Source of the DNA: Verrucomicrobiota bacterium | GTDB taxonomy: Bacteria; Verrucomicrobiota; Verrucomicrobiia; Verrucomicrobiales; DEV007 | DNA length: 64,000 nt | Direction: 5' to 3' | Assembly: GCA_018970725.1 (NCBI GenBank) | Contig: JAGWVU010000001.1 | Location: forward strand, 62,001 to 126,000 | Shown here: positions 18,567 to 33,251 of the stretch, piece after piece | How the letters are laid out: each line of letters begins with the position of its first letter | How positions within the stretch are numbered: the stretch's first letter is position 1 | Made by a program: the position numbers and the translations under genes | The notes under the pieces: model-generated | The model's database searches: none | The model's input: the letters and a program-made list of their open reading frames with translations, nothing else | What the model was told of the DNA's origin: nothing

Positions 18567-20854
18567 GGGATCGGCACGACTTGCACGGCGTCGGCATGGA
18601 TCGCGCCGTCCACCTCTTGATTGGTGAGAGTTACCGAGGAGGCTTGTCCGGGTTCGAATTTCCAGGTGCCGAGAACCCGGTAACCGGCGGGACCTGCGGG
18701 CTGGCGTTGATCGACCTTGAGGGTGGTTTCCCCCTCCGCGGAGCGAATCGTGACCGGTGCGTTGGAGGCGCGGTTTTCATGGGGTTGCCAGTAAAGCCTG
18801 ACCTCATGCATCCCAGCTTGGGCGACGAAAAACTCGAATCTGGCGGCCCCTTTTCCAGCTTGGGAGTGGTAGAGATAGTGATCCCCGATGTAGTCGGAGA
18901 GTCCTTCTCCGGACTTCCAGCTGCCGACGAGCTTGGCCGCGGCATCGTCGATCACGATTCCCTCGAGTTCCGCCGGGTCGATGAACTCGATCCCGGAGGG
19001 AAGGAATTTGGGTCCTCCCGGTGGGAGGTGCAGATCGGAGGTCAAGGAGTCCCGTCGTGACCAGCCGGGTTGGCGGCAAAGCTCCTTGAGGAGATCGAGA
19101 TGTTTTTCGTAAACGCCACGCGGCGAGGTTTCGTGCCGGACGGCGATCCACGAGGCCTTGCCGACGACTTCCCCCATCATCCCGCAGGTCCGCATGACGC
19201 GGGTGGTTCCCAAGGCGAGACGGTCGAGACTGATGTTGCGCCCGGCCATGAACAGGTTCTCGACTTCCTTGGAGTAGAGGGTGCGGTAGGGGACCAAATA
19301 GCCTTCCTTGCGTTCGCCTTCGAAGTGACCGAACTCGGCGCGGGAGATGAAGGGGTTGTCCTTGTAGGTTTTCAGATACTCCTCCTTGGGGTAATGGAGG
19401 TCCAAGCCCCAGGTGGTGGCCACCAGACCGTCCTCGAACTTGCGACCCGATTGAATGTCCGCGCCGGTCAGGATGACATCACCGGTGAGCAGGCGGGACT
19501 CCCGGTTGCCCCCGATGCAGGCTACCCACGCCATGGCTTGGGTGGAATATTTTTCGGGGAGATTCCGTTTCAGCGAGGAAAAAGCGCCGAAAACCGCCCG
19601 GAGATTCCAGTCCCGGATCAACTCGAGATCGTTGATCGGGTGCTTGTCGAAACCGCTCTCCCAGAACCACTCTCCCTTGAGGTAGTTCCGGCCCGCCCAG
19701 GTGGAGGCTCGAGGCTCGGGAAACTCGTCGAGCTGGAGGGTCAGGGCCCACGGAGTTTCCGGCCAGGGAGCCGGTGCGCCGGTGTCCTCGCAATACCACA
19801 TGTTGCTCATTCCGAGGTGTCCTTTCCCGGCCATCGTGAAGGGGGCTCCGGCAAGGGCGCCGATCGTCCCATGACCGGTGCAATCCGCGAAGAGCCTGCC
19901 GGGAAACCGCTTTTCCTGTCCGGTGCGGGTATCGAGAGCGTGAACGGCCATGATGCGCTTACCCTGCATCTCGACTTTGGTGCCATGATGGTTGAGAAAC
20001 AGCGCAAGGTTTTTCTCGGCCCGAACCACGGTCTCCTTCAGATTGTCCCCGTATTCCTCAGCAGATCCCGGGCTGCTCTTGGCGTGATCAGCGAATTCCT
20101 CGACGATCTCGCCGAGCCTAGGGAATTCATTCACCCGGGTCTTGCCCTGGGCCCAGACGCGGACTTCGCTGCTGCCGTTTCCCCCGAGGACCGGGCGGTT
20201 CTGGATCAGGGCCACCCGCAGTCCCTGGCGCGCGGCGGAAATCGCGGCCGCGGTTCCGGCGTATCCGCCGCCGGTCACCACCAAATCAAAGTTCCCCGCG
20301 TCCGGAGGTGCCGCCGGCAAGCCGAGAGCCGAGCGCCGGAAGGAAAGCAACGCCTCGCCGGCGGCCGGCGGCGGCGGGCTTCCGGGGGAGGTGAACAGAA
20401 TGGCGTCGCAACGGCCCGCGAAGCCGGTCAGATCATGGAGCCGGATCTCGGTCGAAGCGGAAGAAATTTCGATGGTCCCGCCATCCTGCCAATGCCAGTC
20501 CGCTCCCTTGGTCCCGAACCCGGCGCCCAATGGTTTCCCTCCGACGACCAATTGGAAGCGTCCCGGAGCGCCAGGAGCGGACCAAGGACCGACCCAATCC
20601 TTGGTCCGGACATGAACCTGCCAGGTCCCGGTGGACGGGAACACGACCGTGGTGACGGCGTCGGCAACAGGGCGGCCCATGCCGTGGGCGAGAAGATACG
20701 GGGACCCCATGATCTCGATGAACTGGGTATCGATGGTCCATCCACCCGGGGTGTCGAACGATTCGGCTTCGACGAAAACCTGCGACGCGCGCAGGCTCGA
20801 ACCCGGGCCGGTGCAGAGCGCGACCAAAAGAAGAGCGGGGAAAAACGAACGCAT
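18563..20854 (-). CDS. Secreted FAD-dependent oxidoreductase with golvesin-like C-terminal domain
   Basis: Predicted exported flavoenzyme of unknown substrate. The 763-residue protein has a signal peptide (ALLLVALC), an N-terminal beta-sandwich region (about 30-160, carbohydrate-binding-like), and an FAD_oxidored (PF12831-type) domain with VVTGGGYAGTAAA and the LFADCTGHGTIGALAGAPF region. A C-terminal stretch, TLKVDQRQPAG...LGTWKFEPGQ...GAIHADAVQVVP, matches the golvesin/xanthan-lyase-associated beta domain. A TTG two codons upstream is possible, but ATG 20854 is preferred. It is first in an operon with the NosR-like protein and ApbE. Similar FAD_oxidored proteins are abundant in Planctomycetes and Verrucomicrobia and are assumed to act on sugars. 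Confidence 0.85.
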   Translation of the reverse strand: MRSFFPALLLVALCTGPGSSLRASQVFVEAESFDTPGGWTIDTQFIEIMGSPYLLAHGMGRPVADAVTTVVFPSTGTWQVHVRTKDWVGPWSAPGAPGRFQLVVGGKPLGAGFGTKGADWHWQDGGTIEISSASTEIRLHDLTGFAGRCDAILFTSPGSPPPPAAGEALLSFRRSALGLPAAPPDAGNFDLVVTGGGYAGTAAAISAARQGLRVALIQNRPVLGGNGSSEVRVWAQGKTRVNEFPRLGEIVEEFADHAKSSPGSAEEYGDNLKETVVRAEKNLALFLNHHGTKVEMQGKRIMAVHALDTRTGQEKRFPGRLFADCTGHGTIGALAGAPFTMAGKGHLGMSNMWYCEDTGAPAPWPETPWALTLQLDEFPEPRASTWAGRNYLKGEWFWESGFDKHPINDLELIRDWNLRAVFGAFSSLKRNLPEKYSTQAMAWVACIGGNRESRLLTGDVILTGADIQSGRKFEDGLVATTWGLDLHYPKEEYLKTYKDNPFISRAEFGHFEGERKEGYLVPYRTLYSKEVENLFMAGRNISLDRLALGTTRVMRTCGMMGEVVGKASWIAVRHETSPRGVYEKHLDLLKELCRQPGWSRRDSLTSDLHLPPGGPKFLPSGIEFIDPAELEGIVIDDAAAKLVGSWKSGEGLSDYIGDHYLYHSQAGKGAARFEFFVAQAGMHEVRLYWQPHENRASNAPVTIRSAEGETTLKVDQRQPAGPAGYRVLGTWKFEPGQASSVTLTNQEVDGAIHADAVQVVPIP

Positions 20855-20972
20855 CGGCAACTTTCTGCGCTTGGGAAGGGGATGGGCAAGTCAATTCTTG
20901 CCGGGAGCCTGGAGAATCGTCGACCCGCGCGTGGACGGAACGAGGATCATGTGGTTGTTTGTAGGGGTCATC

Positions 20973-22304
20973 ATGTTCACGCAGCTCAGCAACCAGCTCG
21001 AAAGCGCCTTCAAAAAACTGCGCGGCCACGGCAGGATCACGGAGTCGAACGTCACCGACGCGATGCGGGAGGTCCGTCTGGCCTTGCTCGAGGCGGACGT
21101 GGACTTCAAGGTCGCCAAGGACTTCATCGCTTCGGTCAAGGAGAAAGCCTTGGGGGCCGAGGTCCTCACCAGCGTGACACCGGGCCAGCAGATCGTGAAG
21201 ATTTTCCACGATGAATTGACCCGTGTCCTGGGAGGGGAAGCGGCGTCCCTCGACCTTCAGCCTCCCGCCCGGGTGGTGATGGCGGGGTTGAACGGTGCAG
21301 GCAAGACCACCACCTCCGCAAAGCTGGCGCAACTCTTGAAGAAGGAGGGCCGTCGGCCGGTTCTGGTGGCCTGCGATCTGGTCCGCCCCGCCGCGATTGA
21401 TCAGTTGGTGACCTTGGCGAAACAGATCGACGTCCCGGTTTATGCTCCTTCGAAGGAGGAGAAGGACGTCCTCAAGGTGGCAAACGCCGGTCTGCGGTTT
21501 GCGGCGGAGCATCAGGCCACGGTTACGATTTTTGATACCGCGGGACGTCAGGACCTCGACCGGGGGATGATCGGGGAATTGGGGAAACTCTGCGAGATGT
21601 TGCAGCCCAAAGAGGTGCTCCTGGTGGCGGACTCGGCGACGGGTCAACAGGCGGTCAACGTCGCGAAGACATTCCAGGAAGCCGTGAAACTGACCGGAAT
21701 CGTGCTGACCCGGGTCGACGGGGACGCCCGGGGCGGGGCTGCGTTGTCGATGCGCACTGTGACGGGTCTGCCAGTCAAATACATCGGTGAAGGGGAGAAG
21801 CTCAACCAGTTGAGCGTCTTTCACCCGCAGCGGATGGCGGGGCGCATTCTCGGCATGGGCGATGTCGTCAGTTTGGTGGAAGCGGCGGCGGAGAACATCG
21901 ACGCGGACGAGGCCAAGCGGATGGAGGATCGGCTGAAGCGGGCCGAGTTCGATTTCAACGACCTGCTGGCCCAGATGAAGATGCTGCGGAAACTCGGGCC
22001 GTTGGAAAATTTGCTTGGCATGCTTCCGGGAATGAGTAAACTTGGCCCCCTTTCGGTCGATGAGAAGCAGATGCGCCGTTCCGAGGCCATCATGCTTTCG
22101 ATGACGCCGAAGGAGCGTTGCCGGCCGGAGATCATCAATGGAAGCCGCCGGAAGCGCATCGCCAAGGGGAGCGGAACTTCCGTCACTGCGGTGAACCAGT
22201 TGTTGCGCCAGGTTTCCGAGATGCGGAAGCTGATGCGGAGCAAGGGGAAAATGAGGCAGTTGATGAAGCAGATGGGTGGGGGCGGAAACAAATTCGGCTT
22301 TTGA
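20973..22304 (+). CDS. ffh: Signal recognition particle protein Ffh
   Basis: GTPase that binds signal sequences of nascent membrane proteins together with 4.5S RNA. The open frame runs to 20631, but MFTQLSNQLESAF at 20973 is the family-typical start, with GTAGGGG about six bases before it. The 443-residue protein has the N domain, the P-loop GLNGAGKTTTSAKLA, DTAGRQDLDRGM (G3), a TRVDGDARGG motif (G4, TK usual, here TR), and a methionine-rich M domain with a basic tail ending GGGGNKFGF. rpsP follows after 40 bp. Confidence 0.96.
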   Translation: MFTQLSNQLESAFKKLRGHGRITESNVTDAMREVRLALLEADVDFKVAKDFIASVKEKALGAEVLTSVTPGQQIVKIFHDELTRVLGGEAASLDLQPPARVVMAGLNGAGKTTTSAKLAQLLKKEGRRPVLVACDLVRPAAIDQLVTLAKQIDVPVYAPSKEEKDVLKVANAGLRFAAEHQATVTIFDTAGRQDLDRGMIGELGKLCEMLQPKEVLLVADSATGQQAVNVAKTFQEAVKLTGIVLTRVDGDARGGAALSMRTVTGLPVKYIGEGEKLNQLSVFHPQRMAGRILGMGDVVSLVEAAAENIDADEAKRMEDRLKRAEFDFNDLLAQMKMLRKLGPLENLLGMLPGMSKLGPLSVDEKQMRRSEAIMLSMTPKERCRPEIINGSRRKRIAKGSGTSVTAVNQLLRQVSEMRKLMRSKGKMRQLMKQMGGGGNKFGF

Positions 22305-22344
22305 ACCCGGGACATTTTATAAGAGACTGAGAAAAGGATAAGTT

Positions 22345-22617
22345 ATGGCAGTAGCAATTCGACTTCGGCGCGAGGGCACCAAGAACCGTCCCTTCTATCG
22401 GATCGTGGTCGCTGATCAGCGTCACCGTCGCGATGGACGTTTCATCGAAATGATCGGCACCTATGACCCGCTCCGGCCGGACGGGGACACGAAGCTGGAT
22501 CTGGCGAAAGCGGAGGCGTGGATCGCCAAGGGGGCGCGCCCTTCGGAAACGGTTGCCAGCATCATCAAGAAGGAGCGGAAGAAGCCCCAGCCGGCTGCCG
22601 CCTCCGAAGAAGCCTGA
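22345..22617 (+). CDS. rpsP: 30S ribosomal protein S16
   Basis: Small-subunit assembly protein. The 90-residue sequence begins [20 protein letters not shown], carries [12 protein letters not shown], and ends with a lysine/alanine-rich tail. A Shine-Dalgarno-like AAAGGA lies seven bases before the ATG. It lies between ffh and khpA, the classic order of the ffh-rpsP-khpA-rimM-trmD-rplS cluster, but rimM, trmD and rplS are not in this window. Confidence 0.97.
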
Positions 22618-22630
22618 ACCCCTGTTTGCC

Positions 22631-22891
22631 GTGGACGCCGGGATCGCGCTCAAGGAGTTTCTTGAGTTCGTCATTGGCAGCTTGGTGCGGAATCGGGAGT
22701 TCGCCGCAGTGGTCCATGAGGTCCACGGCGGGCGTCATGTCTATCGGTTAAGGCTGGCCCCGGAGGACATGGGCCGGATTATCGGGCGCAATGGCTTTAC
22801 GGTTAGCGCCATCCGCAGCCTTTTGGATGCGGCCGCTCGGAGGCATCACATCAAGGTGTCTTTGCGCATTGATGAGGACGCGAAGCCTTGA
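22631..22891 (+). CDS. khpA: KH-domain RNA-binding protein KhpA (YlqC)
   Basis: Small RNA-binding protein that pairs with KhpB in many bacteria. The true start is GTG at 22631 (VDAGIALKEFLEFVIGSL), 14 bp after rpsP; the open frame further upstream merely overlaps rpsP. The 86-residue protein has the KH signature GRIIGRNGFTVSAIRSLL with the GxxG loop GRNG, and a LVRNREFAAVVHEV strand-helix before it. Position after rpsP is the standard conserved context. Confidence 0.9.
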   Translation: MDAGIALKEFLEFVIGSLVRNREFAAVVHEVHGGRHVYRLRLAPEDMGRIIGRNGFTVSAIRSLLDAAARRHHIKVSLRIDEDAKP

Positions 22892-22986
22892 ATCATTCAA
22901 TTCAGTCGTCTCCCGTCTCGCTTCGGTTTTTCCTGAATTCACAAATTAGTTGATTGTTAGGGATTGCAAACTAGTCTGCGGATGTG

Positions 22987-24453
22987 ATGCCTGCAGACAC
23001 TCTCAAACCCTTGGTTGCGATCGGCCCGATCTCCCTCTTTGCTTTCGCCCTTGCTTCGTGCTCGGTGCTGGAAGGGCCTTCAGGCGGGCTGACGCCGACA
23101 TCCGGAAGGTCGGTGGGAGCAGCGGACGACGCTGATGGCGGGCGCGGAGCGGAAGATGGCGGCTTGGCGCTCCGGCCTCTGGACCGTGCGGAGTTGGGAG
23201 GGGATTTGGGGATTGGGGATCCTTTCCCTGACTACAACCGGGGAGGGGTTACGAAGGAGGCCCGGCTGTTCCTGGTGGCCGGCGGGGCCTCGGATGCGAG
23301 CTACCTCCAAGAGATTGTCGTGTTGCGGGATTATTGGATGAAGCAGGGATACAGCGCATCGGAGATCGCCTGCTATTACGTGAAGCCGGAGAAGGCGAGT
23401 TATGAGGCGGATCGGCAGCGGTTCGACTCCATGGCCACCCGGGTCGAATCATTCTATCTGGCGGCGCCGCACGTCCTCTTCCGGCATCTCAAGGAGGTCG
23501 CGGCTTCGGGACCGGGGGCGGTGCATCTCTACGTGAACGGCCAAGGGAAGCTGCCGCTTGACGGGACGAGCGAGGAGCGTTCGCTCACCGCCAAGTATCC
23601 GGACTTCGGGGGAAGTCATCGGATCGTGCTGCGCGGTGGGCCGAGCGGCCATATGAACGAGCGGATGCGCTTGGAAGCGCTGCGGGACGGGATCGACGCT
23701 CATTATCTGGTGTTCAACGCGCAGTTTTTGGCGGAGGCCCTGAACGAGTTGCCGCCTTCGTGCGAGAAGTTCGTGGTCCTGAATGCGGACTACTCCGGAG
23801 GTTTTCTGACCACCCGGTCGGGCGATGATGGACTTCTTCGGGGCTTGGACAAGATCACGGTTCTCGCTTCAGCGGCGCATGACCGGCAGAACATGACCCA
23901 AGGAGGCGAGTTGAGCCAGTTCGGCGGCTTCTTCCTTACGGCCTTGTCGAGTGGCAGCGGGCGGGTGGAAAAACGGTCTTGGCGCGAAATTGCGAATGAG
24001 GTCATCGTTGGGGTGGACCGCAGTGAGGGTGGCACCGGTGTGCGACTGAAGCTGCGCAGCCGGCCGGTCTTCTTCTCGAGCCTTCCCCGGGAATCGGGGC
24101 CTGCGGTGGTGTTGACGAGCGAGTCCGCAGAGCCGGAGGAACCGGCGGCCGACCGGGTGGCGCTGCCGATGCGTCCGGTGAGTGGGCTCCCGGCCCCGAA
24201 ATCACCCCGGACAGAAGTTCGGCCGGTCGCCCCAGAAGCGAAACCTGTGGGCGAGATGGCTCCGGAGAAGCGGACGGTTCCCGAGCCCTCGGGGTCCACG
24301 GCTTCTGCTTTCCCGTTCTCTTGGTTCAAGCCCGCCGAGCCGGCCCAGCCAACCGTCAAGGTGGAGAGCCGCAAAGGTGGAGTCGTACGCGCCGTGGTTC
24401 CGCCCCGTGGCGTGGCCGGCCTGGGGTTGGGCCGTGGCGGTTTCGGGCGGTGA
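22987..24453 (+). CDS. Lipoprotein with C13 (legumain-like) peptidase fold lacking catalytic residues
   Basis: No function can be assigned. The 488-residue protein has a lipobox LASC (Cys at about residue 25). Residues about 90-330 follow the bacterial C13 peptidase pattern: LFLVAGGASDASYLQEIV (opening strand and helix), AVHLYVNGQGKL (position of the catalytic-His strand) and KFVVLNADYSGGFLTTRSG (position of the catalytic Cys), then ITVLASAAHDRQNM and SQFGGFFLTAL. Where active family members have SHG the sequence has GQG (Gln at 23542-23544), and where they have ACYSGG it has ADYSGG (Asp at 23788-23790). So both catalytic residues appear replaced. A proline/alanine-rich tail follows. A GTG one codon upstream is also possible. 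Confidence 0.7.
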   Translation: MPADTLKPLVAIGPISLFAFALASCSVLEGPSGGLTPTSGRSVGAADDADGGRGAEDGGLALRPLDRAELGGDLGIGDPFPDYNRGGVTKEARLFLVAGGASDASYLQEIVVLRDYWMKQGYSASEIACYYVKPEKASYEADRQRFDSMATRVESFYLAAPHVLFRHLKEVAASGPGAVHLYVNGQGKLPLDGTSEERSLTAKYPDFGGSHRIVLRGGPSGHMNERMRLEALRDGIDAHYLVFNAQFLAEALNELPPSCEKFVVLNADYSGGFLTTRSGDDGLLRGLDKITVLASAAHDRQNMTQGGELSQFGGFFLTALSSGSGRVEKRSWREIANEVIVGVDRSEGGTGVRLKLRSRPVFFSSLPRESGPAVVLTSESAEPEEPAADRVALPMRPVSGLPAPKSPRTEVRPVAPEAKPVGEMAPEKRTVPEPSGSTASAFPFSWFKPAEPAQPTVKVESRKGGVVRAVVPPRGVAGLGLGRGGFGR

Positions 24454-24504
24454 AACCGTTTGCATTGCCCCCGGGGCCGGGCAAGCTGGGCGACTTCCTT
24501 CGAA

Positions 24505-24954
24505 ATGCGAGTGGTTTACGAAATTAGCGGGAAATACGACAAGCCGGCGCGGTGCGGCGGTTTGGTCAATTCATCGATTGATCCCGGAGTGACCTATCAG
24601 CACAGCCGGATCTACGAGTTCACGTTCGAGGGGGACAGTGCCGCCCTGGAGTCGTTCGTGAGGCATTGTCTTTTCGATGAAATCGGGCAAGTCCTCACCC
24701 GGGATCCCGGCACTCCGCCTGGGTTGAGCCTCCTCTTGGAAGTGGGCATGAAGCCGGGCTCACTCGATTTGGAGAAGGAGGCGATTCTGTCCGTCCACCG
24801 CGCGAGGCCGGAGTCCGGATTCACGTTGTCGGCCCTCCGGCTGCGGCAGCGCTATTGTTTTTTCGGCCAGGTGACGGAGTCGACCGAGCGCCGTTTGGTG
24901 CGTGACTTGGTGAACCCGGCCATCCAGACCCATACCCTCGAGCGATCGGCATGA
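24505..24954 (+). CDS. purS: PurS-like subunit of FGAR amidotransferase
   Basis: Predicted small subunit of phosphoribosylformylglycinamidine synthase, bridging PurL and PurQ. The 149-residue protein is about twice the length of a normal PurS (about 80). The last third, RLRQRYCFFGQVTESTERRLVR followed by DLVNPAIQTHTL, matches the end of a PurS domain and of the N-terminal domain of long PurL proteins. The first part (about 25-70) looks like a divergent second copy. Context is the strongest support: it overlaps purL by ATGA, and purQ follows. The start at 24505 is chosen as the first ATG inside the conserved region. Confidence 0.7.
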   Translation: MRVVYEISGKYDKPARCGGLVNSSIDPGVTYQHSRIYEFTFEGDSAALESFVRHCLFDEIGQVLTRDPGTPPGLSLLLEVGMKPGSLDLEKEAILSVHRARPESGFTLSALRLRQRYCFFGQVTESTERRLVRDLVNPAIQTHTLERSA

Positions 24955-27314
24955 GCGAAAGCGCCAGTTATCAGCATCTCCCGATTCGCAGCCTCAGCGG
25001 AGAGGAGCTTCTCCTGTTGAGCAAGCGGATGAAGCTTTCCCTCACGGAGGAGGACATGTTGGCGGTCCAGGGCATTTACCGGGAATGGGACCGGGAGCCG
25101 ACCGATGTCGAGCTTGAGGTGATCGCCCAGACGTGGTCCGAGCACTGCAAACATCGGATTTTCGGAGCGAGGATCGAGCACGTGAAGGACGGGGTGACGG
25201 AGACCGTGGACGGGCTGTTCCGGACGTTCGTGCGTCAGGTCTCGGAAGAGATCATGGCGGGCAAGCCCGGGTTCGTTCTTTCGGCCTTTCATGACAATGC
25301 GGGCTTCATCACCTTGGATGAGAATCTGGCGGTCTGTTTGAAGGCGGAGACGCACAACCATCCCTCAGCCATCGAGCCTTACGCCGGAGCGAACACGGGG
25401 TTGGGCGGCGTGATCCGCGACATCCTCGGGGCCGGTTTGGGCGCCAAGCCGATCGGTTCGCTGGATGTCTTTTGTTTCGGATCTCCGGATACGGATCCCG
25501 GGGAGATCAAAGGGGAAGACGTGATTCATCCCCGGGGAATCCTCCGGGGGGTGGTGCGCGGGGTGCGCGATTACGGGAACCGGATGGGAATCCCGACCGT
25601 GGCCGGGGCGATCCAGTTTGATCCGGCCTACCTCTACAATCCGCTGGTCTATTGCGGCACGGCCGGAGTGATTCCCCGCTGGGCGATCGGGAAGAAAGTG
25701 GAACCTGGGCACCTCGTTATCGCGGTGGGGGGGCGGACCGGGCGGGATGGGTTGAAGGGCGCGACCTTCTCCAGCGCGGCCTTGGACGACACCAGCCACG
25801 TGGAGGATCAGCAGGCGGTGCAGATCGGCAACCCGATCGAGGAGAAAAAGGTGGCCGACTTCATTCTGGCCGCCCGCGATGCCCGGCTCATCGAATTCGT
25901 GACGGATTGTGGAGCCGGAGGTTTTTCCTCGGCGGCCGGCGAGATGTTGAGCGAATGTGGCGGGATCATCCGGCTCGAGCGCGCTCCGTTGAAGGAACAA
26001 GGATTGGTCAGTTGGGAAATCTTCATCTCCGAGAGTCAGGAGCGGATGGTGCTCGCGGTGAAGGCGGAGTCTTTGCCCGGGTTGGAGCGTCTCGCTGCGA
26101 TGTATGAGACGGAACTTTGCGTCCTTGGGGAGGCGGACGGCAGCGGGGTGCTCAAGGTGAGTCATCACGGAACGGAAGTATGTCGTCTCGACAACCGCGC
26201 CCTTCACGAGGCGCCCCGCCAGCACCGTCGGTCCACTTGGACGACTCCGTCCCCCGATCCGCAGCCCGATCTTTCGGCGCTGGATGTTGCGGGCACTCTC
26301 AAGGCCCTGTTGTCCGACTTCGCGGTGTGCAGCCGGGAGGCGGTGATCCGGGAATACGATCACGAGGTCCAAGGCAATACCGTTTTGAAGCCGCTGGCGG
26401 GAGGCTGCGGGGACGCTCCGCAGGATGGAGCGGTTTTGCGAATCGACGGGAGTGAACAGTTGCTGGCCATCGGTTTGTCGATTTTGCCGGAGTGGGGCAA
26501 GACGGATCCGGAGGGCATGGGGCTGGCGGTGGTGGATGAGTGTTTCCGTCAACTTGTCTGCACGGGGGCCAATCCGGACCGTATCGCGTTGCTCGACAAC
26601 TTTTGCATGGGGAACCCCAACGATGCGCGCGAGCTTGGCTCTTTGGTGGAGACCTGTCGCGGCATGGCGGAAGCGGCCAAGGCCTATGGGGCACCCTTCG
26701 TTTCCGGCAAAGACTCGTTTTACAACTATTTCGAAGTCGATGGGCAGTCCATCTCGATTCCGGTGACGTTGCTCTTGAGCGGGATGGGGATCGTAGAGCG
26801 GGTGGAGCACGTGACCGGATCGACCGTGCGTCGTCCCGACTCGGCATTGGTGTGGATTGGTCCGTCGAGCCGCGATCTCGGCGGCAGTGTTCTGGCCCGT
26901 CGGCTCGGTTTGGGGAACCTGCGAGTGCCCCGGCCCGACTTGGCGCGCAATCTCGCGTCGTATCGGATCCTCCATAAGGCGATCCGGGATGGGCTGGTTC
27001 TGGCGGCCCACGACGTTTCCGAGGGCGGGTTGGCGGTAGCTCTGGCCGAAATGTCCTTTGGAGAAAAGGCGGATCTGCTGGTGGACGGGGACCTTGACGC
27101 GTTCGATCTCTTCAACGAGGCCCCTGGTCAGGTGGTGCTCGAGGTGCCTTTGGCGGCTCGGGAAGAGGTCTGCGCCCGGTTCGCCGGCCTGCCGGCTCGA
27201 GTCATTGGAGTGACCCGTCCCGGCGCGGGGCGCCTCTTGATCTCCGGCCGGATCGATGAATCGATTTCCGTTTTGAAAGCCATTTGGAAAGCGCCCTTGG
27301 CTGCCCACTATTGA
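24951..27314 (+). CDS. purL: Phosphoribosylformylglycinamidine synthase subunit PurL
   Basis: Synthetase subunit that converts FGAR to FGAM with ATP and ammonia from PurQ in purine biosynthesis. The 787-residue length fits the small, glutaminase-free PurL class. Conserved motifs are QTWSEHCKHRIFG, KAETHNHPSAIEPYAGANTG and GGVIRDILGAGLGAKPIGSL, and in the second half CNR-like PVSGKDSFYN (as APFVSGKDSF) and AHDVSEGGLAVALAEM. It overlaps the PurS-like gene by four bases, and purQ begins 6 bp after it. Confidence 0.96.
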   Translation: MSESASYQHLPIRSLSGEELLLLSKRMKLSLTEEDMLAVQGIYREWDREPTDVELEVIAQTWSEHCKHRIFGARIEHVKDGVTETVDGLFRTFVRQVSEEIMAGKPGFVLSAFHDNAGFITLDENLAVCLKAETHNHPSAIEPYAGANTGLGGVIRDILGAGLGAKPIGSLDVFCFGSPDTDPGEIKGEDVIHPRGILRGVVRGVRDYGNRMGIPTVAGAIQFDPAYLYNPLVYCGTAGVIPRWAIGKKVEPGHLVIAVGGRTGRDGLKGATFSSAALDDTSHVEDQQAVQIGNPIEEKKVADFILAARDARLIEFVTDCGAGGFSSAAGEMLSECGGIIRLERAPLKEQGLVSWEIFISESQERMVLAVKAESLPGLERLAAMYETELCVLGEADGSGVLKVSHHGTEVCRLDNRALHEAPRQHRRSTWTTPSPDPQPDLSALDVAGTLKALLSDFAVCSREAVIREYDHEVQGNTVLKPLAGGCGDAPQDGAVLRIDGSEQLLAIGLSILPEWGKTDPEGMGLAVVDECFRQLVCTGANPDRIALLDNFCMGNPNDARELGSLVETCRGMAEAAKAYGAPFVSGKDSFYNYFEVDGQSISIPVTLLLSGMGIVERVEHVTGSTVRRPDSALVWIGPSSRDLGGSVLARRLGLGNLRVPRPDLARNLASYRILHKAIRDGLVLAAHDVSEGGLAVALAEMSFGEKADLLVDGDLDAFDLFNEAPGQVVLEVPLAAREEVCARFAGLPARVIGVTRPGAGRLLISGRIDESISVLKAIWKAPLAAHY

Positions 27315-27319
27315 ACATC

Positions 27320-28042
27320 ATGGCCCGGCCCAAAGCCCTACTCTTTAAATTTCCCGGCACCAACGCGGATGGCGAGACGGATCGTGCGCTTCGCATGGCG
27401 GGGTTTCTCACCGAGGTAAAGCCGATCGCGGTGGTCGATCCGTCGACTCTGGGTGACTACCGCCTGCTGGTTTTCTCCGGTGGCTTCAGCTATGGTGATT
27501 ATGTGATGGCGGGCCGGCTCGCGCAGCTGGAAATCGAGCGCCGGTTGGGCAGCGCGATCCGGGATTTCCACGGGGCCGGAGGCCATCTGCTCGGGATCTG
27601 CAACGGCTTTCAGATCCTCTCCAAGATCGGCATTCTTCCTCCGGCCAGCCTGATCTCCAATGTTTCGGGGAGATTCGTCTGCCGTTGGGTGCCCTTGCAC
27701 CGGGTGGCGCGCAACAACCCATTCCTCGCCACCCTGCCGGATGACTTTGAACTCCCGGTCGCCCACGCCGAGGGACGTTTGGTCACTCCAGAACCGGAGG
27801 ATGCCGCGGAGTATGTGCGGACCGGTTTGGCTGCCCTGACCTATGGCGACAATTTCAACGGCAGCACCGCCTCCATTGCCGGGCTGCAGGACGCCTCCGG
27901 CAGGGCATTGGGCCTGATGCCGCACCCGGAACGATTCATCGATCGTCACCAGCATTACGATCGGGATTGGGCGGCCGCCGGCCACGGTTGGGGGCATTAT
28001 CTCTTCCAATCCATCCACGACCGCCTCGCGGCATCAGCATGA
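27320..28042 (+). CDS. purQ: Phosphoribosylformylglycinamidine synthase subunit PurQ
   Basis: Glutaminase subunit of the FGAR amidotransferase. The open frame starts earlier inside purL, but ATG 27320 gives MARPKALLFKFPGTNADGET, the normal PurQ start. The class I amidotransferase nucleophile is in LLGICNGFQIL (Cys) and the His/Glu pair in GLMPHPERFID. Other family motifs are SGGFSYGDYVMAGRLA and PVAHAEGR. Its stop overlaps the purM start (ATGA). Confidence 0.96.
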   Translation: MARPKALLFKFPGTNADGETDRALRMAGFLTEVKPIAVVDPSTLGDYRLLVFSGGFSYGDYVMAGRLAQLEIERRLGSAIRDFHGAGGHLLGICNGFQILSKIGILPPASLISNVSGRFVCRWVPLHRVARNNPFLATLPDDFELPVAHAEGRLVTPEPEDAAEYVRTGLAALTYGDNFNGSTASIAGLQDASGRALGLMPHPERFIDRHQHYDRDWAAAGHGWGHYLFQSIHDRLAASA

Positions 28043-29037
28043 GCGAAAGCAAGTTCACCTACAAACAGGCCGGTGTCGATATCGGCGAGGCTGCCACCTT
28101 GGTTGGCGATATCGGGAAACTCCGGGCACGCACCGAGAAGAACCGGCGCCTCCACCAGGCATTCGGCCTCTTTGCCGCAAGCTACGATCTTTCATCCTAC
28201 CGGAGCCCGGTGATTGTGACCGGTTGCGACGGCGTGGGGACCAAGCTGGAGTTGCTGCTCCGGCATGATCTGCTTGAGATTGCCGGCATGGATCTGGTGG
28301 CGATGAATGTGAACGATATCCTGACGACGGGCGGCGATCCGCTGCTCTTCCTGGATTATGTGGCCATGTCCCGGTTGGACCGGGGAAGGATCAGCCGGAT
28401 CATCGCGGGCATGGTCGATTATCTTGAGGCCTGCGATTGCATCCTGGCCGGGGGAGAGACCGCCGAGATGCCTGGTCTCGTTCCCGAAGGTGCGATTGAA
28501 TTATCCGGTTTCTGTATCGGTGCGGCGGAAAAAGAGGATTTGCTCGACCCTTCCAACGTGCGCGACGGCGACGTGTTCATCGGCTACGGATCGGACGGAT
28601 TTCACGCCAACGGCTGGAGTTTGGTGCGCCGGGTTCTCGCGGAGCATGCCGCGGATTTCACAAGCGACGAGATCAGGGCGCTGCTGGCTCCCACCCGCCT
28701 CTATCATGACGTGGTCCGGGGTTTTCGCAGCGCAGGGGTGCGGCCGAAAGCCATGGCGCACATCACCGGCGGCGGTCTTCCGGAGAACCTTGAGCGCTTG
28801 CTCGGCGGGAAGGGAGCGGTCCTCACCATTCCCGCTTGGAATGCAGGTGCCGTCCCGAAGGTTCTCGCGCATTGTGACCCGGCGGATTGCTTCAACACGT
28901 TCAACATGGGGATCGGCTGGGTTTCCATTGTGGATCCGGCAGATGTTGAAAGGTCTCTCGCGATCGGCCCCGGCGGTCGTGTTCTCGGCACCGTCGATGC
29001 CACCACGCAACACGTGAGCGTCGCGGTGGGCAACTGA
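28039..29037 (+). CDS. purM: Phosphoribosylformylglycinamidine cyclo-ligase
   Basis: Closes FGAM to AIR, the step after PurLQS. ATG 28039 (MSESKFTYKQAGVDIGEAA) overlaps the purQ stop. The 332-residue protein has TGCDGVGTKLELL, AMNVNDILTTGGDPLLFLD, ILAGGETAEMPG and HITGGGLPENLERL, all typical PurM. The motif GYGSDGFHANGWSLVR departs mildly from the usual SSGxHSNGxSLVR. Convergent with the phosphorylase gene, with 30 bp between stops. Confidence 0.95.
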   Translation: MSESKFTYKQAGVDIGEAATLVGDIGKLRARTEKNRRLHQAFGLFAASYDLSSYRSPVIVTGCDGVGTKLELLLRHDLLEIAGMDLVAMNVNDILTTGGDPLLFLDYVAMSRLDRGRISRIIAGMVDYLEACDCILAGGETAEMPGLVPEGAIELSGFCIGAAEKEDLLDPSNVRDGDVFIGYGSDGFHANGWSLVRRVLAEHAADFTSDEIRALLAPTRLYHDVVRGFRSAGVRPKAMAHITGGGLPENLERLLGGKGAVLTIPAWNAGAVPKVLAHCDPADCFNTFNMGIGWVSIVDPADVERSLAIGPGGRVLGTVDATTQHVSVAVGN

Positions 29038-29067
29038 GTTGACGCAGCTCCGGGTTTCGTCGCGGGG

Positions 29068-29868
29068 CTACTTGGGGAGATGCCCGACGAGGGCAACCAG
29101 CAGCCGTTCCAACTGGCTGACGGCAGCCTTGCCCCGTGCCATCACGTCCTCGTGATCAAGGATGTCGTCCGAAAGACCGGCCGCCCAATTGGTGAGGAGG
29201 GACAGACCGATCACCCTCATCCACAGCGCCCGCGCCTGAATGGTTTCGAGAACCGTCGACATCCCCACCGCATCCGCACCAAGAAGGGCGAGCATCCGGA
29301 CCTCCGCCGGAGTCTCGTATTGAGGGCCGGACATGCCCGCGTAAACTCCCTCTGACACCACGATCTCCTGCTCCCGGGCCACTCGAAGGAGGAGGGCGCG
29401 CAAGGTCGGATCATAGGCTTCGCCCATGTCGCAGAAGCGCGAGGACCCGGTCAGAGGGGAAGCCCCGGTCAGGTTCAGATGATCGGTGATCGCCATCCAA
29501 CTAAGGGAGAAGTCGCGGTTGATCGCGCCGGCGGCATTGGTGAGAAGGACCGTTTCGACCCCCAAGCTGGCCATCGCGCGGATATGGGCGGTGGCTCGAC
29601 GACCGGAATGTCCTTCATAGAGATGAACCCGGCCCTGGGCGACGATGGTCTCCACCGAACCGATCTTGACCCGGACAAAGCGCCCCGCGTGTCCGGGTAC
29701 GGTGCTGGCGGCCATGCCGCCCACGTTGGAGTAGGGAACCTCGTCGAGCACCTCGAAACGATCCACCAAGGGGCCGAGGCCAGAACCGAGCACGAGTCCG
29801 AAGCGGGGTCTCCACCCCTCGCAATGGGCGGCGAAGCTGGCGAATTCGCGGTCGAGGGTCGGGCGCAT
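29068..29868 (-). CDS. punA: Purine-nucleoside phosphorylase (PNP, family 2/trimeric type)
   Basis: Phosphorolyses purine nucleosides in salvage. The 266-residue protein has GLVLGSGLGPLVDRF (phosphate loop), GHAGRFVRV, GRVHLYEGHS, TNAAGAINRDF and YAGMSGPQYETPAEVRML, all characteristic of trimeric PNP. The later GMSTVLETIQAR corresponds to the MSTVPE purine-site motif with Leu replacing Pro. The tail ends with a run typical of NHxEV loss: LSLLTNWAAGL, the position of the specificity-determining Asn. It follows the topoisomerase gene with a 19-bp gap on the same strand. Confidence 0.93.
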   Translation of the reverse strand: MRPTLDREFASFAAHCEGWRPRFGLVLGSGLGPLVDRFEVLDEVPYSNVGGMAASTVPGHAGRFVRVKIGSVETIVAQGRVHLYEGHSGRRATAHIRAMASLGVETVLLTNAAGAINRDFSLSWMAITDHLNLTGASPLTGSSRFCDMGEAYDPTLRALLLRVAREQEIVVSEGVYAGMSGPQYETPAEVRMLALLGADAVGMSTVLETIQARALWMRVIGLSLLTNWAAGLSDDILDHEDVMARGKAAVSQLERLLVALVGHLPK

Positions 29869-29886
29869 GCGATGGGTGGACAGGAT

Positions 29887-31845
29887 TCAGCGGGGAGCGC
29901 GGACGACGCGGTCCACCTCATGTTTGGTGACGATGTTCCCGTTGCTGTCGCGTCCCTTGATGGCGATTTCGCGAAAGTCGAAGTCGAACTCAAGGTTGCG
30001 CAGGCGGGGGGCGGGTTTGAGGTAAATGCGGAGTTTGGCGGCGGAAGACGAAGCCTCGTCCTCATGCACGGAGAAGTGGTGGACCCGGCTTCCTTTGGTT
30101 CCCTTGGTGAGATCATAGATCCGGTTCCGGGTGAACCCCGTGACCTGAAAGCGCTTCGCGTAAAGGGCGCCATCCTTTCCGTCGCGGTAGATCATGTTGT
30201 AGACCACGGTGGAATCCTTCTGGAAAACCGCGCAATGGACGTTGCTCTCCCCGATGAAGACCTTTTCCGCATTGGGCACGACCCGCATGGTGCCGTCTTT
30301 GGAGAAGGCGATGATGTCGTCGAGCCGCGAACAGGGGCCGATTTCCTCGTCCTTTTTGAGACCCCAGCCGACGAATCCATCCTTGCGGTTCACAAAAAGG
30401 GTCTCGTTGGCCACGGCCACTTCGCGGGCGTTGACCCGGTCGAAACTTGTGAGCACGGTGCGCCGCTCGCGACCGGGACCATATTTGGCCTCCAAGCCCT
30501 CAAACCAGGAAATGGTGTAGGCGGTGAGGTTGCGCAAATTGCGCCGGACTTCCTTCATCTGGTCTTCCAATCCCTTGATGATTTCATCCGCCTTGAAGGA
30601 ATCGTATTTGGAAATCCGCTTGATCCGGATTTCGGTCAGCCTTTCCACGTCTTCATCGCTCACCTCGCGTTGCAGCTTGTGCAGATGCGGCTTGAGGCCC
30701 GTCCAAATCTCCTTCATCACCGCTTCCCAGGTCGTGCACTCCTCGATGCGACGGTAAATCCGGTTCTCGATGAAGATCCGTTCCAAAGAGGAGAAGTGCC
30801 ACTTGTCCTCGAGTTCCCCCAGCTCGATTTCCAGCTCGAGCTTGAGGAGGTCCCGGGTCTGGAATGTGCTCTTCCGGAGGATCTCGGTGACCCCGAGGAA
30901 CTTCGGCTTGTTTTCCTCAATCACGCAGGCGTTGGGGGCGATCGAGACCTCGCAGTCCGTGAACGCATAGAGCGCCTGCAAGGTCTGCTCGGGATCCGTG
31001 CCCGGAGGAAGCGTGATCCGGATGTCCACCTCGTCCGCCGTCAAGTCATCGATCTTTGCGATCTTGATCCTTCCCTTGGTATGGGCGTCGGTGATGGAGG
31101 CCTCGATCGACTCGGTGGTGGTCCCGAACGGAATTTCTCGGATGGACAGGGACTTGTTTTTGAGGATGTCGATCCGGGCCCGGACGCGGATCCGGCCGCC
31201 GCGCAGGCCGTCGTTGTAATCGGTTGCATCGAGCAACGCCCCCTGGGCAAAGTCCGGATAAAGGGTGAATGATTCCCCCTTGAGAACCGCGATCGAAGCC
31301 CGGATCAATTCGATGAAATTGTGCGGCAGGATTTTGCAGGCGAGGCCGACCGCGATCCCCTCGACTCCCATGGCAAGAACCAACGGGAACTTTACCGGGA
31401 GGGTGACCGGCTCCTTGTTGCGACCGTCGTAGGAAGCTGCCCAGGCGGTCGTCTTCTTGTTGAACGCCGCCTCCAAAGCGAACTTCGAGATTTTGCACTC
31501 GATATACCGGGGGGCCGCGGCATTGTCCCCGGTGTGGATGTTTCCCCAGTTGCCCTGGGTATCGATGAGAAGATTCTTCTGGCCCAGCTGAGTCATCGCC
31601 TCGCCGATCGAGGCATCCCCGTGCGGGTGATATTGCATGGTATGCCCGACGATGTTGGCCACTTTGTGAAAACGACCGTCGTCCTTTTCAAACAGGGAGT
31701 GGAGAATCCGGCGCTGCACCGGCTTGAGACCGTCCGCGATGTGGGGAACCGCCCGCTCAAGAATCACGTAGGAAGCGTAGTCGAGGAACCATTCGCCATA
31801 CATGGCGTTCATGGGGGAACCTTGGTCCGGTGCGGTCGTTGCCAT
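29887..31845 (-). CDS. parC: DNA topoisomerase IV/gyrase subunit A (ParC-type)
   Basis: Cleaves and rejoins duplex DNA in the type IIA topoisomerase tetramer. The 652-residue protein is shorter than E. coli GyrA or ParC. ERAVPHIADGLKPVQRRILHS, YHPHGDASIGEAM and NIHTGDNAAAPRYIEC (the Tyr is the catalytic one) are conserved. A coiled stretch follows and then a reduced C-terminal domain. A TTG at 31890 is in frame, but ATG 31845, with GGAGG upstream, is favoured. No parE/gyrB is adjacent, so its partner must be elsewhere. The length and sequence style resemble the short ParC of Bacteroidetes and Verrucomicrobia. Confidence 0.9.
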   Translation of the reverse strand: MATTAPDQGSPMNAMYGEWFLDYASYVILERAVPHIADGLKPVQRRILHSLFEKDDGRFHKVANIVGHTMQYHPHGDASIGEAMTQLGQKNLLIDTQGNWGNIHTGDNAAAPRYIECKISKFALEAAFNKKTTAWAASYDGRNKEPVTLPVKFPLVLAMGVEGIAVGLACKILPHNFIELIRASIAVLKGESFTLYPDFAQGALLDATDYNDGLRGGRIRVRARIDILKNKSLSIREIPFGTTTESIEASITDAHTKGRIKIAKIDDLTADEVDIRITLPPGTDPEQTLQALYAFTDCEVSIAPNACVIEENKPKFLGVTEILRKSTFQTRDLLKLELEIELGELEDKWHFSSLERIFIENRIYRRIEECTTWEAVMKEIWTGLKPHLHKLQREVSDEDVERLTEIRIKRISKYDSFKADEIIKGLEDQMKEVRRNLRNLTAYTISWFEGLEAKYGPGRERRTVLTSFDRVNAREVAVANETLFVNRKDGFVGWGLKKDEEIGPCSRLDDIIAFSKDGTMRVVPNAEKVFIGESNVHCAVFQKDSTVVYNMIYRDGKDGALYAKRFQVTGFTRNRIYDLTKGTKGSRVHHFSVHEDEASSSAAKLRIYLKPAPRLRNLEFDFDFREIAIKGRDSNGNIVTKHEVDRVVRAPR

Positions 31846-31988
31846 AGATGAACTTGCCTCCAAAATGTCCTTAGGAAATGTTTCATGCAAAGAAAATTTG
31901 AATTTCTGTCAGGATGACGGCCCGCATGACGATCGATTGTTATGGCGAACCGATTGCGTCCGGCGTCCAATGGGTCCAGCCTTTTGCC

Positions 31989-33251
31989 ATGGATCGGTCC
32001 TGCCGTTTTCCCCTGCTGCTCCCGTGGTGTGCCCTCGCGGTTTGTTTCACCGCATGTGACAAAGTTTGGGAAGCCGGTCGGTCTCACGAGGCTCCCGAGG
32101 TTCCTGTCGTCGCGCCGCCTCCGCCGCCGGAGATTCCGCCCCCCCCCGCCAAGGTGGAGTCGGGTCCCGTTTTCAATCCCCAGGCCCAGATTTCCATCCT
32201 GGGCTATCACGATTTCTCGGCGACCCGGCCTTCATCAGACATGGTCATCCATCCGGACCGGCTCCGGGCCCAGATGGAATTGATCCGCCGCAGCCGGATT
32301 CCGGTGGTTCGGATGAGCGACTATCTCCTGTGGAAAACGGGACGGAAGAACCTGCCCGAGGAGGCCATTGTGATCACTTGCGATGACGGTTGGGAAGGGG
32401 TTTACACGGAAGCGTTTCCCATCTTCAAGGAGTATGGCTTCCCGTTTTCGATTTACCTTTACCAGAGTTATCTCGGGGGATCCGGGCGCTCGTTGAGCGT
32501 GGACGAGATTCGGGAAATGATGGCCCACGGCTGCGAAGTTGGGTGCCACTCGGCAAGCCATGACGACTTGACGAGGACCCGACCCGACCTTGACACCTGG
32601 TTGCAGCAGGAGTTGACCGGCTCGCTCGAATTCCTCCGGTCCACCTTCGGCGTGGAGAACGTGTTGCCGGTGTTTGCCTATCCTTACGGCAAATACAACT
32701 CGAGAATCCTCGAAGGCTGTGCGGGAGCGGGCTACGAACTTGGCCTCACCGTGGCCCCGAAGAAAGCCGCCCACGGCGAACCCAATCTCGAACTGGGGCG
32801 GTTCATCATTCACGGAGATGACGATACCAATTTCAACCAGGCCCTGACCTTCAAGGGCACGGTGATCAATCCCTCCGCGGCCTTGTCAGGCCTGACCGAC
32901 GTGGCCCTTCGTCCCGGGAACCAGAGCATGGTAACGACCCGGTTTCCCCGGATCGAAGCGGACCTATCCAAGGTGCAAGGGATCGATCCGAACGGGGTTA
33001 CGATGCGGGTGAGCGGATTCGGCGAGGTGCCCTGCATCTACGATCCGGAGAGCGGCCGGCTGCACTTCCAAACGGTAGAACCCCTCCGGGCCCGGAACGT
33101 TCAAGTGCTGGTGCGGTTCCAACGCAAAGGTCAGGAAAAGGCGGACACCATCAAGTGGAGCTTCTCGGTGGACTTGGAAAAACTCTACTTCGAGGGAAGC
33201 GATCCGGCAATGCAGCCGGTTCCGGTCAAATCACCGGAACCGGGATCCTGA
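31989..33251 (+). CDS. Polysaccharide deacetylase lipoprotein (NodB homology domain)
   Basis: Predicted outer-surface or periplasmic carbohydrate esterase family 4 enzyme that removes N-acetyl groups from a polysaccharide or peptidoglycan. The ATG at 31989 gives a signal peptide with lipobox FTAC (Cys about 23) and a proline-rich linker (about 40-55). NodB motifs are VITCDDGW (131, with the catalytic Asp pair), HSASHDDL (187-191, metal His) and AYPYGKYN (about 223). The C-terminal region (about 310-420) is an unassigned beta-rich domain. In-frame ATGs at 31914 and 31926 exist but would bury the signal peptide. It is divergent from parC and its stop lies 3 bp from the next convergent stop. Confidence 0.87.
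   Translation: MDRSCRFPLLLPWCALAVCFTACDKVWEAGRSHEAPEVPVVAPPPPPEIPPPPAKVESGPVFNPQAQISILGYHDFSATRPSSDMVIHPDRLRAQMELIRRSRIPVVRMSDYLLWKTGRKNLPEEAIVITCDDGWEGVYTEAFPIFKEYGFPFSIYLYQSYLGGSGRSLSVDEIREMMAHGCEVGCHSASHDDLTRTRPDLDTWLQQELTGSLEFLRSTFGVENVLPVFAYPYGKYNSRILEGCAGAGYELGLTVAPKKAAHGEPNLELGRFIIHGDDDTNFNQALTFKGTVINPSAALSGLTDVALRPGNQSMVTTRFPRIEADLSKVQGIDPNGVTMRVSGFGEVPCIYDPESGRLHFQTVEPLRARNVQVLVRFQRKGQEKADTIKWSFSVDLEKLYFEGSDPAMQPVPVKSPEPGS

Follow-up and report, generated by a model that had tools for sequence, protein, structure and literature searches.

The lipoprotein gene and its flanking sequences

The window, a stretch of 64,000 nucleotides from a Verrucomicrobiota bacterium, carries a pseudo-C13 lipoprotein gene (22987-24453, forward strand, as are all features given below with coordinates) that encodes a protein of 488 amino acids, P0001, and is found at the same location in three orthologues, its own genome counted. 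The amino terminus is a lipoprotein signal peptide (22987-23061) with the lipobox LASC, in which Cys25 is followed by Ser26, a pair also present in both other orthologues. As judged by eye, a lipobox ending in Cys follows a hydrophobic stretch in all three proteins (LASC, LSSC and LGSC), and we take that of P0001 to be a site for signal peptidase II. A Gly-rich linker separates the lipobox from a clan-CD (legumain-like) domain at about residues 79-372 (23221-24102), delimited with an AlphaFold2 model and VIA-align. Beyond it lies a weakly conserved tail rich in Pro, Ala and Val (24097-24450), where the prediction confidence is very low and the chain is probably disordered, although the ending AGxGxGRGxFxR (last 12 residues, 24415-24450) is kept in all three genomes. 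On re-reading the sequence, the reading frame, the motifs and both catalytic-site codons of the original prediction proved to be placed exactly.

Just before the start codon, within the 95 bases preceding the gene, a block TTCACAnnTTAGTTGATTGTTAGG...AACTAG (22938-22976) is kept in all three genomes, even though the synonymous sites of the same genomes are saturated. It is a candidate promoter or operator; it showed no consensus match to the sigma-70 pattern of our scan, and its core occurs as one exact copy in the genome, with one more at two mismatches. Downstream, 57 bases separate the gene from a small ORF (24511-24954), with no Pfam or NCBIfam match, which is followed by purL (24951-27314; domain matches to AIRS, AIRS_C and FGAR-AT_linker). 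Because this gap is so short, co-transcription of the pseudo-peptidase gene with purL is possible, and the scan for terminator-like sites found none between the gene and the small ORF. Conservation is also strong in the gap itself (24454-24510; GAAACCGTTTGCA...GGGCAAGCTGG), which could contain a regulatory element or a short ORF. Positions 20000-32000 gave no Rfam match, so that a known riboswitch or another Rfam RNA in the vicinity was rejected. The small ORF occupies what we take to be the usual place of purS, and it is possibly a divergent PurS.

The two replaced catalytic sites

The catalytic motifs of active C13 peptidases are SHG and ACxSGG. At the first of these sites P0001 has the codon CAA (23542-23544), which encodes Gln186, and at the second GAC (23788-23790), encoding Asp268; in a pairwise alignment, the His and the Cys of an intact paralogue fall on these two residues. 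The sites lie 82 residues apart in P0001 versus 55 in the paralogue. Alignment of the orthologues at both codons, the check that the original prediction had proposed, shows Gln, Leu and Gln where the His would stand and Asp in all three in place of the Cys, so that none of the three has either catalytic residue. Since all three orthologues lack the dyad, a sequencing error or a very recent loss is ruled out. With the nucleophilic Cys replaced by Asp and the general-base His by Gln or Leu, the sequence makes cysteine-peptidase activity of P0001 very unlikely.

Sequence link to family C13 through an intact paralogue

The similarity to C13 that a profile search was expected to detect is invisible from P0001 alone and is carried instead by a paralogue and by the predicted fold. 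A Pfam search with P0001 returned no family, PF01650 included, and the only NCBIfam match was to a caspase model, at 15.8 bits and thus below the cut-off of 140. Both the phmmer and the profile search of the PDB gave zero matches, and the domain alignment likewise matched nothing in Pfam or the PDB. However, an intact paralogue sharing 34% identity with P0001 was found on another contig of the same genome, and also in a second genome of the genus, G001 (E 2.7e-27 and 3.3e-27, respectively). It is likewise a lipoprotein, judging from its signal sequence, and retains intact SHG and GCHAGGF motifs at the positions aligned to the dead sites of P0001. Both copies of the paralogue pass PF01650 (Peptidase_C13; cut-off 22.8 bits), scoring 27.2 and 32.6 bits, which makes P0001 a homologue of an intact member of the family at E 2.7e-27; one of the two also passes Peptidase_C14. 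In an alignment with metacaspase-9 C147A, the paralogue's Cys falls on the catalytic residue that is mutated there, although this match by itself lacks significance (E 0.41). PADLOC returned nothing for the locus, and for the paralogue only a chance-level match to JetD (E 0.051).

The AlphaFold2 model of the domain (residues 78-371, built from a five-sequence alignment) reached a pLDDT of 71.1 and a pTM of 0.79, with two of the five models scoring near 52, while the full-length model had a pLDDT of 52.7. The predicted domain has the caspase/legumain fold. Its best match in VIA-align was 6l4w (Z 20.1, rmsd 3.0 over 222 aligned residues); rows 1-37 were legumains, plant asparaginyl endopeptidases (AEP) and the GPI-transamidase subunit, followed by metacaspases from row 38 (Z 18.3) and caspases near 16. 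The legumain lead over the metacaspases is less than 2 Z units, however, and the Foldseek E-value order favours the metacaspases instead, with metacaspase 9 at the top (7.5e-7) and no legumain before rank 33. Thus a clan-CD fold is well supported by the models. Descent from C13 rather than C14 is likely but not proved, because Foldseek puts metacaspases first and one paralogue passes the C14 model too. The original prediction is borne out in part, as regards a lipoprotein with a C13 or clan-CD domain and both catalytic residues replaced, and to this can be added that the replacement is stable across the genus and that an intact paralogue exists.

Distribution and rates of evolution

Of 95 relatives, the window's own genome counted, 3 gave an orthologue, and all three belong to one genus; a profile search of the order gave the same number (3 of 288 genomes). 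The corresponding search of the phylum returned only the window's own genome (1 of 387), in an even sample where neither of the genus's other two genomes produced a match. A search of genome contigs yielded one locus, in record QQNE01000056.1, and there was no match in IMG/VR, searched with the five-row alignment, or among plasmids, searched by tblastn. The three orthologues are thus all those in the data. The reading frame is open in each of them, including the copy in the third genome, G002, which is split between two contigs and is open as far as both pieces reach.

Corrected dN values for the domain in the three pairwise comparisons were 0.186, 0.156 and 0.176, whereas dS was saturated, for which reason we quote no numeric dN/dS ratio. 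Between the window's genome and G001, corrected dN was 0.186 for the pseudo-peptidase domain, 0.067 for its residues 194-247 and 0.091 for the intact paralogue, compared with 0.101 for purL, 0.119 for purC and 0.226 for the small ORF. The domain has therefore evolved about twice as fast as the intact paralogue, but it is clearly under constraint.

A segment that has scarcely changed

Between the two dead sites lies a segment (residues 194-247; 23566-23727) that is longer than its counterpart in the paralogue and has a corrected dN of only 0.067-0.072. It contains a run of 35 residues (211-245; 23617-23721) that is identical in all three orthologues, where 203 of the 294 domain columns are invariant. 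A run as long as this arose in 1 of 20,000 shuffles of those columns, a figure that overstates the strength of the result because the shuffle treats columns as independent. Synonymous sites in residues 194-247 are as diverged as elsewhere (proportions of 0.66-0.83), and the constraint therefore acts on the protein. Asp268, Asn184 and Lys188 are also invariant in the three species, as is nearly all of the run; the paralogue differs at these positions or lacks them. Model confidence is lowest here, with pLDDT below 50 over about residues 216-242, and we infer from the sequence alone that the segment would lie near the old active site.

Gene order and a proposed history of the purine operon

The window and G001 share the gene order ffh, the rpsP region, a KH protein, the pseudo-peptidase gene, the small ORF and purL, the name rpsP and the gene names in G001 having been assigned by eye. 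In G002 this small ORF and purL again come after the end of the pseudo-peptidase gene, which thus precedes the pair in all three genomes. The intact paralogue, for its part, starts at the end of purC in both the window's genome and G001, where its probable GTG start codon overlaps the purC stop codon or lies directly against it; in the former, purC was confirmed as SAICAR synthetase. Neither purC nor the intact paralogue was found in G002 (81% complete), and the absence of the intact copy there is uninformative because purC is missing as well.

Of 58 genomes of the family, 52 have the small ORF, including the three of this genus. Outside the genus, a purC motif lies directly upstream of it in 20 of the 27 loci that were fetched, and in one further locus (L061) purC was recognized by eye. 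Among the six others, two have almost no upstream sequence (L053 and L058) and two are shorter than the rest (L051 and L073), while in L050 and L075 we found no purC upstream of the small ORF. Since the pseudo-peptidase gene precedes the small ORF and purL, the intact copy adjoins purC, and purC stands directly before the small ORF in most other genera of the family, the gene order indicates that the pseudo-peptidase gene and its paralogue are historically linked to the purine operon, but nothing points to a role in purine synthesis. This goes against the earlier view that the gene is probably unrelated to that operon. The simplest history would have a C13 lipoprotein gene inserted at the junction of purC and the small ORF and duplicated in place, after which the operon broke apart between the two copies; the intermediate gene order that preceded the split was seen in none of the genomes examined.

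Proposed function and alternative explanations

We favour, with a probability of roughly 0.6, the reading that P0001 is a genus-restricted pseudo-peptidase lipoprotein, a C13-like duplicate from a split purine operon that was retained for a putative binding function. The protein would be an extracytoplasmic lipoprotein, given its predicted lipidation, with a legumain-type domain, given its predicted fold, and incapable of acting as a cysteine peptidase. Its gene would have arisen when an intact gene for a C13-like lipoprotein was duplicated, with the two copies flanking the old junction of purC and the small ORF. After the operon split, the intact copy would have stayed with purC at one site and the pseudo-peptidase copy with the small ORF and purL at another. 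The latter carries a longer segment between its dead sites, the 35-residue run of which became almost immovable, and the domain, held away from the membrane on the flexible N-terminal linker, would most likely bind a ligand or a protein partner through a remodelled face around the old active site. The order of events, the loss of activity and the binding role are what we infer, and the remodelled face is read from sequence alone. A binding or scaffolding role seems the most likely, because the catalytic residues have been lost while constraint has been maintained. Since one part of P0001 is nearly frozen and an intact sister is present in the same genome, the protein has probably been put to a new use instead of decaying. 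More tentatively, and with less than even odds, the dead legumain-fold site could have been rebuilt through the frozen segment into a new ligand-binding or catalytic site in the envelope, following duplication in a purine operon that split, within a single verrucomicrobial genus.

The main rival to a binding role is regulation of the intact paralogue. By analogy with c-FLIP and caspase-8, the dead copy could be a dedicated regulator that pairs with, shields or titrates the active one. Both proteins are lipoproteins by their signal sequences, each of the two most complete genomes of the genus encodes both, and the structural matches include an entry for the zymogen caspase-8:c-FLIP complex (3h11_B, Z 16.3). 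However, the two genes are now unlinked, passages of PMC4357240 describe legumain as active as a monomer, so that pairing is not the default in C13, and PMC6426788 makes the case that pseudo-orthocaspases of bacteria probably function without involving their active relatives. We regard such a regulator as unlikely, though it is the strongest of the alternatives.

Asp268 could conceivably serve a different chemistry, and P0001 would then be an enzyme whose new site combined this residue with the invariant polar residues of the run 211-245 (His, Asn, Glu, Arg, Asp, His and Tyr). The invariance of these positions together with Asn184 and Lys188, unlike in the paralogue, is what such an enzyme would call for, but binding would produce equal conservation, searches of Pfam, NCBIfam and the PDB revealed no similar motif, and, with pLDDT below 50 over most of the run, the geometry cannot be judged; we consider this explanation improbable. 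A decaying duplicate without function, which the loss of both catalytic residues, the variable His site (Gln, Leu, Gln) and the faster evolution than that of the intact copy might suggest, is rejected on the rates, with dN far below a saturated dS, and on the longest invariant run in the shuffle test, and it fits poorly with the open frames and the conserved block before the start codon.

Comparison with known systems

Among the known systems closest to P0001 is the intact lipoprotein beside purC (G000:C1, in the window's own genome, and G001:C1), with which it has the domain and the lipoprotein nature in common; the latter keeps SHG and GCHAGGF and lacks both the longer segment and the Pro-rich tail of P0001. 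The C13 family as a whole (legumain and the GPI-anchor transamidase PIG-K; PF01650) resembles it in predicted fold over about 220 residues (Z 19-20). The intact paralogue passes the family model whereas P0001 has no match of its own, and P0001 differs from the family in the replacement of both catalytic residues and in a dyad spacing of 82 residues (55 in the paralogue). Background on the clan is given in PMC4357240.

Some other C13-like proteins of the Verrucomicrobiales, which match the Pfam family at or near its cut-off, have also replaced the nucleophile. Unlike P0001, they keep the His (GHG) and have Ser in place of Cys (ASxSGGF), so that they are possibly serine-type enzymes. This combination was observed in 16 of the 24 C13-like loci of the order (L024-L030, L032-L034, L036 and L038-L042), 15 of them in one genus of another family and one in the window's family, and could mark a C13 group that has switched from Cys to Ser. 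The third genome of the genus encodes yet another C13-like protein (L035, G002:C81), in which GTHG and TCGSGGF are intact.

Most of the caspase-clan pseudo-enzymes known in bacteria belong to the orthocaspase side, and word-matching searches of open-licence PMC text turned up no publication on a bacterial pseudo-enzyme of the legumain family. A lipoprotein of legumain type that is dead and has its intact sister in the same genome would form with it a natural pair in which to follow how a peptidase fold is turned to a non-peptidase role, and the gene order suggests a traceable route for it, by way of a duplicate at an operon junction that was split later. According to PMC6426788, whose main text on a word search does not mention Verrucomicrobia, lipoproteins or C13, pseudo-orthocaspases make up 8.6% of bacterial orthocaspases and occur mostly in Alphaproteobacteria and Cyanobacteria. 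As described there, these C14B-like proteins are clan-CD pseudo-enzymes with a replaced His-Cys dyad, as is P0001. The commonest replacement in their p20 domain is Tyr-Ser, whereas P0001 and its orthologues have Gln or Leu with Asp at the two sites, which sets them apart; P0001 also probably falls on the legumain side by its predicted fold and is a lipoprotein. Dead clan-CD proteins are already known in bacteria, and P0001 is probably a variant on the legumain side.
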